Shown here piece by piece: positions 5,903 to 32,298 of a DNA stretch of 32,298 nt. Position 1 is the first letter of the stretch, and each line of letters begins with the position of its first letter. The stretch covers positions 1-32,298 of the forward strand of contig PLLR01000064.1 of assembly GCA_003141335.1 (NCBI GenBank), read 5' to 3'. The stretch is from Methanoregula sp. GTDB lineage: Archaea; Halobacteriota; Methanomicrobia; Methanomicrobiales; Methanospirillaceae. The translations under genes were made by a program, and so were the position numbers. The notes below the pieces were generated by a model. The model was not told the origin of the DNA. It did no database searches and saw nothing but the letters and a program-made list of their open reading frames with translations.

Positions 5903-6988
5903 ATGTCAGAGATTTCAAACCTCCTCTCAGATGTACTCGGGGGACATCGCCTTACTGAGGCAGAAGCAACCCGGCTTCTGGACACACGGGGCCGGGAAGT
6001 TTTCCAAATTGCGTCTGCGGCAGATGAGATGCGAGAGCGCCATGTGGGGGATATTGTCACCTATGTGAAAAATCAGAATCTGCATGTGACCAATATCTGT
6101 AAGAACCTCTGCGGTTTCTGCGGCTTTGGCAGGAGTGCGGGTGATGAAGGGGCATACTGCAATGATAAGGCAGCAATTCAGGCAAAGGTACATCTCGCCT
6201 TAAAACGGGGTGTTACTGAGATCTGTCCGCTGAGCGGGGTGCATCCCGAATTTACAATCGACACCTACTGTGATCTGATCACGTGGGTGCACGAGGTGGG
6301 ATCGCATATTCATCTGCACGCGTTCAGCCCGGATGAGGTTTCTCATGCAGCCTCCAGGAGCAATCTCTCCAGCGCTGAGGTTCTTGGACGATTAAAGGCT
6401 GCAGGACTTGGTTCGTTACAGGGTACTGCAGCAGAGATCCTTGTGGACTCCGTGAGAAAGGTGATATGTCCCCGTAAACTAGGCACGGCTGAATGGGTGC
6501 GTATTATCAAAGAAGCACACACCCTGGGGATCTCATCGACGGCTACCATCATGTACGGTTCCTATGAAACTGCGAAGGACCGTGCTGAGCATCTTGGCAT
6601 CCTGCGCAATATTCAGGATGAGACGCACGGCTTTACCGAACTGGTTCCCCTGTCATACATCCACACAAATACTCCGCTCTATAAAGAAGGCATTGCCCGC
6701 GCAGGTGCGACCGGTCGGGAGGACCTGCTTATGATCGCAGTTTCCCGGCTGTTCCTGGATAATTTCGATAATATTCAGGTCCCCTGGGGGAAGCTGGGAC
6801 TAAAGATGTCGCAGATGACGTTGATGGCCGGAGGCAATGATCTTGCCGGTACAATGTTTTCTGATGATGTCACTGCGGATGCGGGGGCAAGCGATGCAGA
6901 TTACCTGGATCCCGCTGTCATGGAACGGATGGTTTCAGACCTTGGGAGAACCCTGCAAGAGCGGACAACCCTGTACGAGCTGGTATAA
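5903..6988 (+). CDS. cofH: CofH, F420 precursor (FO) synthase subunit 2, copy 1
   Basis: CofH is a radical-SAM enzyme that joins tyrosine-derived 4-hydroxybenzyl to 5-amino-6-ribitylaminouracil, the first committed step toward the deazaflavin FO of coenzyme F420. The [4Fe-4S]-binding motif is CKNLCGFC (Cys66, Cys70, Cys73), followed by the family block NDKAAIQAKVHLALKRGVTE. The length of 361 residues is normal. It shares most of its sequence with the second copy at 7490-8578, including GTAAEILVDSVRK, DETHGFTELVPLS and the terminal RTTLYEL. Only 15 bases separate it from the signal peptidase gene. No Shine-Dalgarno sequence is apparent. The partner CofG is not in the window. One of the two paralogues could act on a different substrate. 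Confidence 0.87.
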   Translation: MSEISNLLSDVLGGHRLTEAEATRLLDTRGREVFQIASAADEMRERHVGDIVTYVKNQNLHVTNICKNLCGFCGFGRSAGDEGAYCNDKAAIQAKVHLALKRGVTEICPLSGVHPEFTIDTYCDLITWVHEVGSHIHLHAFSPDEVSHAASRSNLSSAEVLGRLKAAGLGSLQGTAAEILVDSVRKVICPRKLGTAEWVRIIKEAHTLGISSTATIMYGSYETAKDRAEHLGILRNIQDETHGFTELVPLSYIHTNTPLYKEGIARAGATGREDLLMIAVSRLFLDNFDNIQVPWGKLGLKMSQMTLMAGGNDLAGTMFSDDVTADAGASDADYLDPAVMERMVSDLGRTLQERTTLYELV

Positions 6989-7374: not shown

Positions 7375-7489
7375 AGATCTCCTGTAGAGATGGTTGGCGT
7401 AGGGAAATAATAATCATGTGGCATAAGAATACGATACATTTACTTTTAACCGGATGCTACACAGCCTGAAGAATTTCCTGGAGCGAGGT

Positions 7490-8578
7490 ATGGAGAAAAA
7501 CCTGCGGATCCTGCTGGATGATGTGAAAAACGGCTACCGGCTGAGCGAAGAAGAAGCACTGGATCTGTTCCATGTCCGGGATCGACGGGTCTGGGATATT
7601 GCAGCAACTGCTGATGAGGTGCGCGAACAACGGGTCGGTAACGATGTCACCTATGTCAGAAACCAGAATATCAATGTGACAAATCTTTGTGTTAACTCCT
7701 GTGGTTTCTGCGGTTTTTCAAAAAAACCCGGCGATGACGGCATCTATTTTCATGACAAGTCCGAGATCCAGAAGAAGGCGGCCCTCGCAAAAATGCGCGA
7801 AGTATCCGAGATCTGTACGGTCAGCGGGCTCCACCCGGATTTTAATGCCCGATCCTATTGTGATGTCTACCGCTGGATTCATGAGGCTGCACCCGGGGTC
7901 CACCTTCATGCAAGCAATCCGATGGAAGTTGCATTTGCTGCCAAAAAGAGCAATATGAGCACACAGGAAGTGCTGACCGTGATGAGGGAGGCGGGACTCG
8001 AGTCAATGTGCGGGACTGCAGCGGAGATCCTTGTTGATGTCGTCCGTAAAAAAATCTGTGCGCAGAAGGTTTCAACAGAGGAGTGGGTGCGCATTATCCG
8101 GGAGGCGCATGCCATGGGCATTCCAACGACTGCAACGATCATGTATGGTCACTGCGAGAGTGATGAAGACCGGGTGCATCACCTGGCAATCCTGCGTGAA
8201 ATTCAGGACGAGACGCACGGGTTCACAGAATTTGTCCCTCTCTCTTTTATCCATATGAACACCCCCCTCTACCGCGCAGGAATCGCGCGGGCGGGAGCGA
8301 CAGGAAGAGAAGATCTCCTGATGGTTGCCGTGTCACGCCTCTTTCTGGACAACTTTAAAAATATCCAGGTTTCGTGGGTGAAAGAGGGGATCAAGATGGC
8401 CCAGTTGGGTTTAATTGCCGGTGCCAACGATCTTGGAGGAACGATGTTTGAAGAGAGCATATCAAAAGGGGCGGGAGCGGTCAATACCGATTATCTCGAT
8501 CCCGCTGAGATGCAGCGGGTTGCAGAGGATGTGGGCAGACCCCTCCGGAGGCGCACCACGCTGTATGAGCTGATCTAA
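7490..8578 (+). CDS. cofH: CofH, F420 precursor (FO) synthase subunit 2, copy 2
   Basis: This is a second radical-SAM enzyme of the CofH family. The cluster motif is CVNSCGFC, followed by SKKPGDDGIYFHDKSEI, and it ends in RTTLYELI like the first copy. The frame is open to ATG 7454, but ATG 7490 is preferred. It is preceded by GGAGCGAGGT, it gives 362 residues and so matches the paralogue's 361, and a TATA-like stretch at 7435-7449 would start transcription after 7454. The two copies look roughly 60 percent identical by eye, with divergence concentrated around the segment after the cysteines and in the C-terminal third. Both keep the three cysteines and so should bind the cluster. Specialisation or partial redundancy is open. 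Confidence 0.87.
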   Translation: MEKNLRILLDDVKNGYRLSEEEALDLFHVRDRRVWDIAATADEVREQRVGNDVTYVRNQNINVTNLCVNSCGFCGFSKKPGDDGIYFHDKSEIQKKAALAKMREVSEICTVSGLHPDFNARSYCDVYRWIHEAAPGVHLHASNPMEVAFAAKKSNMSTQEVLTVMREAGLESMCGTAAEILVDVVRKKICAQKVSTEEWVRIIREAHAMGIPTTATIMYGHCESDEDRVHHLAILREIQDETHGFTEFVPLSFIHMNTPLYRAGIARAGATGREDLLMVAVSRLFLDNFKNIQVSWVKEGIKMAQLGLIAGANDLGGTMFEESISKGAGAVNTDYLDPAEMQRVAEDVGRPLRRRTTLYELI

Positions 8579-27978: not shown

Positions 27979-28965
27979 ATGAAAATTGCGATTATCGGGG
28001 CTTCCGGTTATGCCGGTGGTGAGCTGATACGCCTCCTCGTTCACCACTCCACCGCAAAGGTTACCTGTGCCACTTCCCGTAAACTTGCGGGAACACCCCT
28101 TGATCAGGTTCATCCCCACCTCAAAGGATTTACCGATCTCAAATTTGAAAACCCGGATATTGACAACATTGATGCAGACGTTGTATTTCTCGCAGTTCCT
28201 CACACAGCTGCAATGACCTATGCAGGCAGACTGTTGTCGAGAGGAATAAAAGTAGTGGATCTCAGTGCCGATTACCGTTTACCAAAAGAGATCTATGAGA
28301 AGGTGTACGGGGTCCCCCACTCGGATTATTTCCCGGCACCTTACGGTATCCCTGAGCTTCACCGGAAGGAATGCGTCAATGCAAAGTTCGTTGCAAATCC
28401 CGGGTGTTTCCCAACCGGGGCAACTCTTGCGGCAGCTCCCCTGGCAAAATATGCTCACACGGTAATCTTTGACTCAAAGACCGGTGTGAGTGGTGCGGGG
28501 GACAATCCCTCAGCAACCACGCACTATCCGAATGTAGGGGACAATATCGGACCCTACAAATGGACAACCCATCGCCATCTGGCTGAGATGAAACAGGAGC
28601 TTACCTGGCTCGGGTCAAAAGCGAAATGCTATTTCACCCCCCATCTTGTGCCAGTTAATCGCGGCATTCTGACAACGGCCCACATCCTGCTCAATGAGCC
28701 CCTGGGGCAAGAAGATGTTGAGAAAATATACCGCGATTTCTACAAAGGGGAATTCTTTGTGCGGTATCAGAAGCCCTCACTTGCCGCGGTCCGCGGAAGC
28801 AATTTCTGTGATGTCATGGTCGAAAGTGAAGGATTGCGTGTCGTGGCAATATCTGCCATAGACAATCTCGTGAAAGGGGCAAGTGGCCAGGCAATTCAGA
28901 ATATGAATCTTATGTGTAGTCTAAAAGAACAGGACGGACTAATTGGGGCAGGTATGCTGCCGTAG
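27979..28965 (+). CDS. argC: N-acetyl-gamma-glutamyl-phosphate reductase ArgC
   Basis: ArgC reduces N-acetylglutamyl phosphate to the semialdehyde with NADPH, the third step of arginine synthesis. The start [18 protein letters not shown] is the nucleotide-binding loop. LAVPHTAAM and DLSADYR follow, the catalytic Cys143 lies in NPGCFPTGA, and [20 protein letters not shown] and [11 protein letters not shown] belong to the substrate site. The length of 328 residues is normal. The next gene, a CBS-domain protein, begins after 10 bases with GGTGA overlapping the argC stop, so the two are one transcript. Confidence 0.95.
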
Positions 28966-28975
28966 GTGAATAATA

Positions 28976-29470
28976 ATGCTGGTAAAGGATACAATGACAA
29001 AAGACCCTATTGTGTGCACTGCTGAAACATCCCTCCGCGACGCAGTAGGTTTAATGAGGAAGCATCATATCGGCGGGCTTCCGGTTATGGAAGGCACGGA
29101 ACTCATCGGCATGCTTACAGAATCTGATCTTATCTCGCTCCTTGAATCTGAAAGGATCTCCGATGACCTTTGGCTGCCATCTCCCTTTGAGATTATCGAG
29201 ATCCCTATCCGTGAGTACATCAACTGGGAGAAGACAAAACATGCACTTCGCAACATCGGGGATATGCAGGCAAAAAAGGTAATGACGCACCGGGTAATCA
29301 CCGCAACAGAGGACATGGATATCGAGGCAGCTGCGTCACTGATGCTTAAAGAGGGGATCGCACGCCTTCCAGTAATCCGGGGAAAAAAACTGGTAGGGAT
29401 TCTGACAAGGGCAGATATCATCAATGCAGTTGGGTCGTCCCATTCTGCCAAAGAGGGAGCTGATACGTAA
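28976..29470 (+). CDS. Tandem CBS-domain protein inside the arg operon
   Basis: The 164-residue protein is a pair of CBS domains. The first (about 1-60) has VKDTMTKDPIVCTAETSLRDA and HHIGGLPVMEGTELIGMLTESDL; the second (about 98-155) has VMTHRVITATEDMDIEAAA and GIARLPVIRGKKLVGILTRADI. A linker of about 40 residues contains SPFEIIEIPIREYINWEKTKHAL. No enzymatic domain is present. CBS pairs bind adenine nucleotides such as AMP, ATP or SAM and usually regulate a partner. The gene is tightly packed: GGTGA before its start overlaps the argC stop, and its TAA is followed at once by ATG of argJ. A role in sensing for arginine synthesis is inference. Confidence 0.88.
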   Translation: MLVKDTMTKDPIVCTAETSLRDAVGLMRKHHIGGLPVMEGTELIGMLTESDLISLLESERISDDLWLPSPFEIIEIPIREYINWEKTKHALRNIGDMQAKKVMTHRVITATEDMDIEAAASLMLKEGIARLPVIRGKKLVGILTRADIINAVGSSHSAKEGADT

Positions 29471-30628
29471 ATGACGTTTCAAAGTATCTGTGCAGTCAAG
29501 GGTGTAAAAGCATATGGGATGAAAGAAGGAAAGTTCGGGCTGACACTCATCCGTGCAAGCGGAACAGCAGCTGGTGTATTTACCGAAAATCTTGTCAAAG
29601 CAGCTCCCATTGAACTTATGCGCAAACAGATAAAAAAGGGGACAATGGAAGCAGTAATCGCAAACAGCGGGTGTGCCAATGCCTACACCGGAAAAAGAGG
29701 ATATTCAGATGCTGTTGCGATGACCGGGTTTGCAGGTTCTGCACTGGGTGTTGAACCGGATCAGGTTGGCGTTGCCAGTACAGGAGTCATTGGACGGTAT
29801 CTCGATCTCCCGCTTATTCAACGCCAGTGTGAGGCAATTGCACCGAAGATCGAATGTACCCAAGAAGCTGAAAACCTTGCAGCCCAGGCCATTTTGACGA
29901 CCGATACGTTTCCCAAACATGCACTCGTACAAAAAGAAACGTTCACTATTGGGGGAATTACCAAGGGAAGCGGGATGATCGCACCGAACATGGGGACAAT
30001 GCTCGCATTTATCTATACCGATGCGGATATCGGTGCAAAACCCCTGACGCAAGCCATCAAACTAGCTACCAGACGCACATTCAACCGCGTCGTCGTTGAT
30101 GGGGATATGAGTACGAATGATATTGCGCTTTGCACAGCAACAGGGGAATCAGGAAAGGTAAATCCTGCTGAGTTTTCACGTGCTCTTGAGGAGTGCTGTC
30201 GTTTGCTTGCACAGCAGATCGCGGCAGATGGTGAAGGTGCTACAAAATTAATAGAGGTGACCGTGAAGGGAGCGCAAAAGGAAGACGCGGCCGCAAAAGT
30301 TGCCCGCACCGTTATTGAGTCGCCCCTGGTAAAGACTGCTGTCTATGGGGAAGATCCAAACTGGGGAAGAGTGGTTGCAGCGGCCGGGCGTGCGGGTGTT
30401 GAGTTTGATCCGAATGCAATTTCACTCTGGATCAGCGATGGTACTGAGAGGTATCCGCTGGTCAGGTCCGGAGAGATTATCGCAGATCTGAAGAAGGCAA
30501 AAGGGGCAATGCACGGTAGGAAAGTGGTCTTTATTCTTGACCTTGCAGCGGGAAAAGAAGAAGCAACCGCATGGGGCTGCGATCTCACCGAACGCTACGT
30601 TGAGATCAACGGGAGGTACACCACATGA
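29471..30628 (+). CDS. argJ: Glutamate/ornithine N-acetyltransferase ArgJ
   Basis: ArgJ transfers acetyl from N-acetylornithine to glutamate, and in some organisms also uses acetyl-CoA, closing the acetyl cycle of arginine synthesis. The precursor cleaves itself before a nucleophilic threonine. Here the site is [10 protein letters not shown], with Gly175-Thr176, where most family members have Ala-Thr. The oxyanion-hole block is ASTGVIG, and [16 protein letters not shown] lies in the second half. The length of 385 residues is typical. Its ATG follows the CBS gene stop directly (TAAATG), and its stop overlaps argB by 4 bases (ATGA). Whether it is the one-substrate or the bifunctional type cannot be told from sequence. 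Confidence 0.94.
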
Positions 30629-31500
30629 TGAAGCGCGAGGATGTTCTTATGGAGGCGCTGCCCTACATCCAGCAGTTCCATGGCAAGACTATCGTGATCA
30701 AGCTCGGTGGGCATGCGATGGTGGACCCGGTTGTCCTCGAAAATGCCATCCGGGATGCAGTACTCCTCCATTACGTGGGAATTCGCGTGGTACTTGTGCA
30801 CGGGGGTGGCCCTGAAATATCTGAAAAGATGAAGGCGATGGGCAAAGAATCCGTCTTTATCGGGGGACTGCGGGTGACTGACCCGGAAACCCTCGAGATC
30901 GCCCAGATGGTTCTTGTTGGTAAGATCAACGCCGGGATTGTGTCCCTGATCGCTAAATGCGGCGCCCGTGGTGTCGGGCTCTCGGGCAGTGACGGCAACC
31001 TGATCATCGCAAAGAAGATGGATCTCCAGAAAATAGAGATCGGGGGTGTGCAGAAAGAAGTTGATCTCGGGCATGTCGGCGAGATCGAATGCATCGATCC
31101 GGCAATCCTGAACACGCTGCTCGATACGAGTTATATTCCGGTTGTCGCACCGATAGCGATTGATCGTTCTGGCAGGAGTTTAAACATCAATGCCGACACG
31201 GCAGCCGGCGATATTGCCGTTGCACTCAAAGCCTACAAACTCGTGAATATGACTGATGTAGACGGGGTTATGGACGCAAAACGGACTATGGTATACCGGA
31301 AACTGACCATCAATGAAGCGAATGCCATGCGGAAATCCGGGGCGATTGGTGAAGGGATGATCCCGAAAGTGAGTTCGGTGATCAGGGCAGTAGAAAATGG
31401 CGTGAATTATGCGCATATCATCAATGGCAACACCGAGCACAATCTCATTCTCGAACTCTTCACCCGAGACGGTGTCGGGACGATGATCTCCTTAAAATAA
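30625..31500 (+). CDS. argB: Acetylglutamate kinase ArgB
   Basis: ArgB phosphorylates N-acetylglutamate with ATP, the second step of arginine synthesis. The 291-residue protein shows [12 protein letters not shown] (phosphate-binding glycines and lysine), [45 protein letters not shown] and [10 protein letters not shown]. It belongs to the amino-acid-kinase fold. The start overlaps the argJ stop by 4 bases, with two successive ATGs, so 30628 is an alternative. It ends the argC-CBS-argJ-argB set. argD, argF and others are not in the window. Confidence 0.95.
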
Positions 31501-31568: not shown

Positions 31569-31997
31569 ATGGACAATACGCTGAAGATAGTTTCAGGTGT
31601 AGTTATTGCGGTGCTGGCTGCCTGTGTGGTATTTTTTGTTATCTTCAATCAATCAGTAATAACGGTGTCACCTTCAGCGGATACTTCAGTTCAGAGTAAG
31701 GTTACGGTCTATTTCTTTTACGGTGAAGAATGCCCGCATTGCCATAACGTGATGCCGTTCATCCAGAATCTTTCAATAAAATATCCTGATGTGGATTTCC
31801 AGATCCTCGAGACCTGGCATAACGAGACCAATGCTAATTTTTTCAATATGATGAACGATCAGTTCCGGGTACCAAATAATAAAAGAGGTGTCCCGGAAGT
31901 AATGGTGGTCGGAAATAATACTCCTCTTATCGGAGAAGGTGACATTCCTGCATACCTAGAAGGCGTCATTCTCGAACAATTAAAAAAAAAGCAGTAA
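31569..31997 (+). CDS. Membrane-anchored thioredoxin-like protein, first domain
   Basis: The 142-residue reading frame starts with a signal-anchor helix (about 6-28, IVSGVVIAVLAACVVFFVIF) and a short linker. A thioredoxin-like domain follows: the redox motif is Cys55-Pro-His-Cys58 in YGEECPHCHN, and GVPEVMVVG carries the expected cis-proline. It is probably tethered outside the membrane, where it would act on disulfides. GAGAGGT at 31555-31561 precedes the ATG. The frame ends EQLKKKQ-stop inside a run of nine A. A second thioredoxin-like domain follows in the -1 frame without a start codon of its own, so the real protein may be longer through frameshifting or a base-count difference. Confidence 0.8.
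   Translation: MDNTLKIVSGVVIAVLAACVVFFVIFNQSVITVSPSADTSVQSKVTVYFFYGEECPHCHNVMPFIQNLSIKYPDVDFQILETWHNETNANFFNMMNDQFRVPNNKRGVPEVMVVGNNTPLIGEGDIPAYLEGVILEQLKKKQ
31985..31991 (+). other. Candidate -1 slippery heptamer A AAA AAG
   Basis: Within the run of nine A (31982-31990), the codons are arranged as A.AAA.AAG, the slippery heptamer known from E. coli dnaX. The zero frame meets TAA two codons later (31995-31997), while the -1 frame stays open to the end of the window and encodes a second thioredoxin domain. No strong downstream hairpin or upstream Shine-Dalgarno stimulator is evident. Confidence 0.45.
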
Positions 31998-32298
31998 CTG
32001 ATGGAACGGAATTTCATAAGACCACTTTTTCATCAAATGTTACATCACTAAACGCGACCATCAGCGCATTTTATTTCTATGGTGACGGCTGCAGCCATTG
32101 CGAGAAGGTAAAACCCCTAATCGCAGATCTCCGCGAGAAATACCCCGAACTCGATATACAGATGTTGGAAGTCTACAATAACGTGACAAATCAGGAGACG
32201 TTTGCCCGGATGAGCCGACAGTACGGTGTCAGCAGTCCAGGAGTGCCAACAATCTATATCGGTACTACTGCAATGGTCGGGGATGTTGATATTAAAAA
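31988..32298 (+). CDS. Second thioredoxin-like domain in -1 frame, no start codon, incomplete at window end
   Basis: By reading the -1 frame after the A9 run I find an open frame to the window end. It begins KAVTDGTEFHKTTFS, then ATISAFYFYGDGCSHC with redox motif CSHC, a helix EKVKPLIADLREKYPELD, and GVPTIYIG with the cis-proline. This closely parallels the first domain (FYFYGDGCSHC against YFFYGEECPHC). Going upstream, the frame is closed by TGA at 31940-31942, and between that and the domain there is no ATG, GTG or TTG. It is therefore either fused to the first frame by -1 frameshifting, or the A-run has lost or gained a base, naturally or as a sequence error. What follows beyond the window is unknown. 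Confidence 0.65.

Follow-up and report, generated by a model that had tools for sequence, protein, structure and literature searches.

A conserved A9–A10 tract in a Methanoregula thioredoxin gene as a candidate site of programmed recoding into two nested products

The dnaX gene is recoded at a run of adenines by two different routes, transcriptional slippage on nine As in Thermus thermophilus and ribosomal frameshifting at A AAA AAG in Escherichia coli. To our knowledge, programmed RNA-polymerase slippage has not been demonstrated as a means of making two proteins from any archaeal gene. A 2021 review (PMC8211752) regards −1 frameshifting as established for a single archaeal cellular gene and states that its use by further archaeal genes is not known. 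The first-pass annotation of the present locus had called programmed frameshifting rarely documented in archaea. A −1 change at a slippery site has been shown for the α-L-fucosidase gene fucA1 of Sulfolobus solfataricus (PMC8211752, PMC8037382), and −1 recoding was predicted for the magnesium chelatase ‘fs-genes’ of Methanocaldococcus and Methanococcus by Antonov et al. in 2013 (PMC3711429). The literature that we searched contained nothing linking Methanoregula with frameshifting.

Here we describe a Methanoregula thioredoxin gene lying at the end of a 32,298-nucleotide stretch of DNA (the window). Comparison of its sequence among relatives makes it highly probable that this is one gene with two nested products, which would arise when a conserved A9–A10 tract causes a programmed slip that depends on the length of the run.

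The gene at the end of the window

The first open reading frame (ORF1; 31569–31997, plus strand, as for the other parts of this gene) runs from an ATG at 31569 to a TAA at 31995–31997 and encodes a predicted membrane-anchored thioredoxin-like protein of 142 aa, the putative short form, as judged from the ORF listing, a profile, conservation and dN/dS. It has an N-terminal transmembrane anchor (31587–31649; 19-residue Kyte–Doolittle maximum of 3.11, located at residue 7) and a thioredoxin domain (thioredoxin 1) with a CPHC redox motif at 31731–31742; both cysteines, and the FYG..C..C pattern that holds them, are invariant across 25 homologues. The 3′ end of ORF1 reads CAA TTA AAA AAA AAG CAG TAA. 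Its A9 slippery run (31982–31990) provides two in-phase heptamers, A_AAA_AAA at 31982–31988 and A_AAA_AAG at 31985–31991, and the frame-0 stop at 31995–31997 would end the short form.

The −1 frame is open in the window from 31943, directly after a stop at 31940–31942, to 32298, and extends past the window end. From 31991 on, that is, after the run, it encodes a linker and a second thioredoxin domain (thioredoxin 2), whose CSHC motif at 32090–32101 has both cysteines invariant in 18 homologues. No ATG, GTG or TTG occurs in this frame from 31943 to the CSHC motif, the earliest lying at 32162. Two observations of the first-pass annotation are thereby confirmed: that the CPHC frame ends just past the A9 run, with a second, CSHC-bearing thioredoxin encoded in the −1 frame, and that no such start codon lies between the upstream stop and the second domain in the window.

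The window belongs to a contig of 69,051 bases in a draft genome of 2.02 Mb and 125 contigs, and a 2-N scaffold gap follows immediately at contig positions 32299–32300. The genus is assigned from relatives, the nearest matches in a named collection being species of Methanoregula and other Methanomicrobiales. The closest relative (G035, ~91–92% DNA identity) has 112 nt where the contig has NN, and a gap of true length would restore the frame between thioredoxin 2 and what follows. Past the gap, the same gene continues, up to about contig position 32969, as a multi-helix membrane domain with two cysteines (C156 and C276, in NPC and CTGG) that are invariant in 18 sequences. The full product is predicted to consist of an N-terminal anchor, thioredoxin 1, a KKK linker, thioredoxin 2 and the multi-helix membrane domain. 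The continuous two-domain protein that had been proposed from the window was thus supported as to the joining of the two thioredoxins, but it was too short, as the long form would also include the anchor and the membrane domain.

Elsewhere in the window, inspection by eye identified an argC-, argJ- and argB-like arginine biosynthesis cluster directly upstream of the recoded gene (27979–31500), with a CBS-domain ORF inserted inside it, and two adjacent paralogous radical-SAM-like ORFs (5903–6988 and 7454–8578; 361 and 374 aa) resembling a CofH/CofG-like pair of the F420 pathway.

Conservation across Methanoregula and in-frame relatives

We searched 39 Methanoregula genomes, one per species and several of them metagenome-assembled, and found the split layout in 20, about half (G000, G003, G005, G009, G010, G011, G014, G018, G021, G024, G025, G026, G027, G029, G030, G032, G033, G035, G036 and G037). 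All 20 split genes have an A9 or A10 run with ORF2 in the −1 frame, and in all of them the frame-0 stop falls 1–16 nt past the run. In 18 genomes ORF2 is intact and free of gaps, and there it extends for 359–364 codons beyond the run; outside this count are G000, where it is broken by the NN gap, and G032, where the open frame is shorter. The genomes with the split layout include the complete M. formicica genome (G033; 2,820,858 bp), that of the isolate SMSP, whose Roche 454 and Illumina sequence was finished by hand (PMC4155587). Runs of at least nine As are scarce in M. formicica, with just 24 on both strands of its 2.82 Mb, one of them being the junction.

The position of the frame change is narrowly delimited in four species (G029, G037, G024 and G011), in which the −1 frame opens just 10 nt ahead of the frame-0 stop; a −1-frame stop stands directly before the run, so that the shift must occur within the A run. 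Both parts of the gene are under purifying selection, with dN/dS of 0.09–0.27 for ORF1 and 0.12–0.37 for ORF2 over nine species pairs, and these low values indicate that both behave as expressed proteins. Where a Leu codon adjoins a run ending in AAG, it is TTA in all eight species having one, although TTA accounts for just 30 of 1141 Leu codons across the split genes; this points to selection at the synonymous level for an unbroken run, with the reservation that the species are kin and do not amount to eight independent draws.

In 15 of the 20 split species no ATG, GTG or TTG precedes the thioredoxin 2 CxxC, and a canonical start does so in the other five (G010, G024, G021, G018 and G003), so that the absence of a second-domain start noted in the window holds for most species but not for all. 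ORF1 carries an anchor in 20/20, and in 20/20 the N-terminus of ORF2 has no hydrophobic segment, whereas single-thioredoxin relatives of ORF2 begin with a hydrophobic anchor in 8/8. Fusion to ORF1 is therefore the only source of an anchor for ORF2, which on its own would lack the segment placing thioredoxin 2 outside the membrane.

Natural in-frame thioredoxin–thioredoxin–membrane fusions occur in three genomes (G016, G020 and G019), with no A run at the junction, and are, from their sequences, the counterparts that would be expected for a recoded product. On contig C43 of G019 (L168), three thioredoxin domains are naturally fused to the same membrane domain (632 aa). In G034 (L008:1501–2652), thioredoxin 1 is fused in frame to the membrane domain without thioredoxin 2, with an A10 run at the same place (CTT AAA AAA AAA ACG GTG AGT GAT). 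The gain or loss of a single A there leads to a stop within four codons past the run, and it is possible that G034 uses the slippery run inversely, keeping a ratio of long to short forms from the other side. M. formicica has an extra stand-alone copy of thioredoxin 1 (G033:C1:2402091–2402501; L016) besides the recoded gene.

When thioredoxin 1 sequences were placed on a tree, those from split genes fell into several well-separated groups, with poor resolution of the deep branches, and parsimony gave 5 changes (bootstrap range 4–6). As this tree is poorly resolved and the layout is confined to a single genus, the 20 cases are not to be counted as 20 independent events; the split layout probably arose early in the genus and was later gained, or lost to in-frame and stand-alone versions. 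No split pair was evident in the search table for 61 other genomes of the order, whose loci were partly inspected, and the viral contigs searched contained no relative. A mechanical frame-change filter applied to 110 A runs (the G011 runs listed, together with the remaining 23 A9+ runs in M. formicica) returned no other convincing recoded gene, its matches being mainly antisense or in non-coding frames.

Explanations for the frame change

An indel in the A run, introduced by sequencing or assembly into a single in-frame gene, had been the main alternative in the first-pass annotation. Errors are common in homopolymers, and the window comes from a draft genome with a gap close by. However, 20 genomes agree on the −1 frame, five of which consist of a single contig, and random errors would not consistently yield −1; with the finished M. 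formicica isolate genome among the concordant 20, we regard an artefact as ruled out, the chance of it being practically nil. Replication slippage that toggles the fusion at the DNA level (phase variation) would suit an A9–A10 homopolymer in a membrane-protein gene, but a switching locus should show both states and all 20 assemblies, at one genome per species, are in the same off state, making this a very remote prospect. It is likewise highly improbable that ORF1 and ORF2 are two separate genes, with ribosomes reinitiating on ORF2 at a start codon that overlaps the stop of ORF1 or lies close to it. Such starts can be pointed to, as a GTGA overlap in G024, a TTGA overlap in G010, a CTGA overlap in seven species and, deeper inside ORF2, an ATG in G021 and G018 and a TTG in G003. 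We set reinitiation at a stop-overlapping start aside because most species have no usable start; moreover, an independently started ORF2 would be missing the anchor that its single-thioredoxin relatives carry, and the A9–10 run would be left unexplained. Programmed recoding at the run, by comparison, is well supported, because the layout is conserved, the run is invariant, both parts are under selection, the frames overlap by as little as 10 nt and the in-frame fusions are free of the run.

Whether the polymerase or the ribosome would slip is less clear-cut. The slip had been read as ribosomal, with the −1 shift exactly at the dnaX-type heptamer and an alignment across related genomes suggested as a check. 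The −1 change and the A9 or A10 run hold throughout the 20 split species, as does an in-phase A_AAA_AAA, but A_AAA_AAG is kept in only 14 of them; what is invariant is a stretch of nine or more As, in any phase, and not the dnaX heptamer. Presence of a heptamer is not independent evidence, since any run of nine As holds one in phase, and the phase of the run is not decisive either. No conserved stem-loop was detected in 45–110 nt around each junction compared with dinucleotide shuffles (mean z −0.2 to −0.5), in a fold screen that covered stem-loops and left out pseudoknots, and no conserved Shine–Dalgarno (SD) sequence was found upstream of the junction among the split genes. The lack of a conserved stimulator of either kind makes RNA polymerase slippage at least as likely as ribosomal frameshifting. 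In addition, the complete G011 genome encodes both tRNA-Lys UUU and tRNA-Lys CUU, and the presence of the latter makes a dnaX-style slip on AAG less expected.

Under polymerase slippage, an A would be added on the A9–10 tract and the mixed mRNA pool would give short and long forms. This would account for the invariant minimum of nine As, where a ribosomal heptamer needs seven, and for run starts falling in all three codon phases among the split genes. Conservation of a nine-A run in homologues is, besides, a published criterion of purposeful transcriptional slippage (PMC1088944), and in the in-frame G034 fusion the A10 run is such that one A more or less would bring an early stop. Against it, the literature searched gave no proven case of transcriptional slippage in an archaeal gene, and the shift is −1 in 20/20; by one published rule, a −1-only direction is read as ribosomal frameshifting (PMC3711429). 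Ribosomal −1 frameshifting on the in-phase A_AAA_AAA, or on A_AAA_AAG, would fit this uniform direction, and in E. coli reporters frameshifting rises with the length of the A run, from 10% at 7 A to 40% at 9 A and 63% at 11 A (PMC3711429). We give polymerase slippage nearly an even chance and hold the ribosomal route to be somewhat more doubtful than probable, and thus rate the two almost alike, marginally favouring the polymerase. That a cellular archaeal gene makes two proteins by programmed RNA-polymerase slippage at an A9–A10 tract is a proposal that we put forward tentatively.

Predicted products and comparison with known systems

Programmed recoding at the tract would give the following scheme. 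When no slip occurs, ribosomes would halt 1–16 nt past the tract, and the product would be a small thioredoxin (thioredoxin 1) with a membrane anchor. After a net −1 change at the tract, in which either the ribosome re-reads one A or RNA polymerase adds one, translation would proceed through thioredoxin 2 into the membrane domain with its two invariant cysteines. We infer that one gene very probably gives two proteins, a short one with a single domain and a long one that spans the membrane. The short and long forms foreseen by the first-pass annotation thus stand in so far as the layout for both is conserved across relatives; the long form exceeds the two domains envisaged.

Window thioredoxin 2 scored 29.9 bits against Pfam PF00085, above the cut-off of 23.5, and window thioredoxin 1 scored 20.7 bits, under that cut-off, yet with an invariant CxxC; the G016 in-frame fusion reached 37.2 bits, best in its thioredoxin 1. 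The membrane domain has the two conserved transmembrane cysteines looked for in CcdA/DsbD proteins, but it gave sub-threshold profile matches only (NCBIfam DsbD, 21.8 bits for a cut-off of 330; Pfam SfLAP, 31.7 bits for a cut-off of 35). A model of the in-frame fusion had a mean pLDDT of 77 and a pTM of 0.46, at which the relative placement of the domains is unreliable. In a Foldseek search of the PDB it matched two-domain PDI fragments (E 2e-4 to 7e-4); the thioredoxin pair was recognised and the membrane domain was not.

CcdA/DsbD proteins likewise combine extracytoplasmic thioredoxin domains with a membrane domain that has two invariant cysteines. The present gene differs from them in its order (anchor–thioredoxin–thioredoxin–membrane domain), in its weak profile matches and in being split by recoding. 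By analogy, the long form may pass electrons across the membrane, as reducing (or oxidising) equivalents, to its two extracytoplasmic thioredoxins in the manner of CcdA/DsbD, and the short form may act as a separate, free-standing partner.

These results suggest an archaeal membrane redox protein made as two linked forms from one gene, and offer a genus-wide, evolutionarily stable candidate case of recoding. As M. formicica is a culturable isolate with a finished genome, the question of archaeal frameshifting becomes directly testable there. Automated gene calling will break this redox protein in two and overlook the N-terminal portion of ORF2.

Recoding at A runs is already known; the gene and the lineage are new, and among other archaeal families there is a prediction for magnesium chelatase. 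Like the present gene, the magnesium chelatase fs-genes occur in methanogens and have a predicted conserved −1 change at A_AAA_AAR or long A runs, two overlapping ORFs and in-frame homologues elsewhere. That family, however, has members in both bacteria and archaea, and E. coli was the host in which its slip sites were assayed, whereas the present candidate is a different gene, seen only in Methanoregula. The fucA1 gene shares an archaeal slippery-site −1 change with the C-terminal ORF in the −1 frame, but it is interrupted in two strains only and yields a single recoded enzyme (PMC8211752, PMC8037382); here the site is conserved in 20 species, and the short and long products would both make sense. 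The likeness to dnaX lies in one gene giving two products at an A run, which in Thermus is equally long, and the difference in that the present gene is archaeal, unrelated and without a conserved counterpart of the stem-loop or SD sequence of E. coli dnaX.
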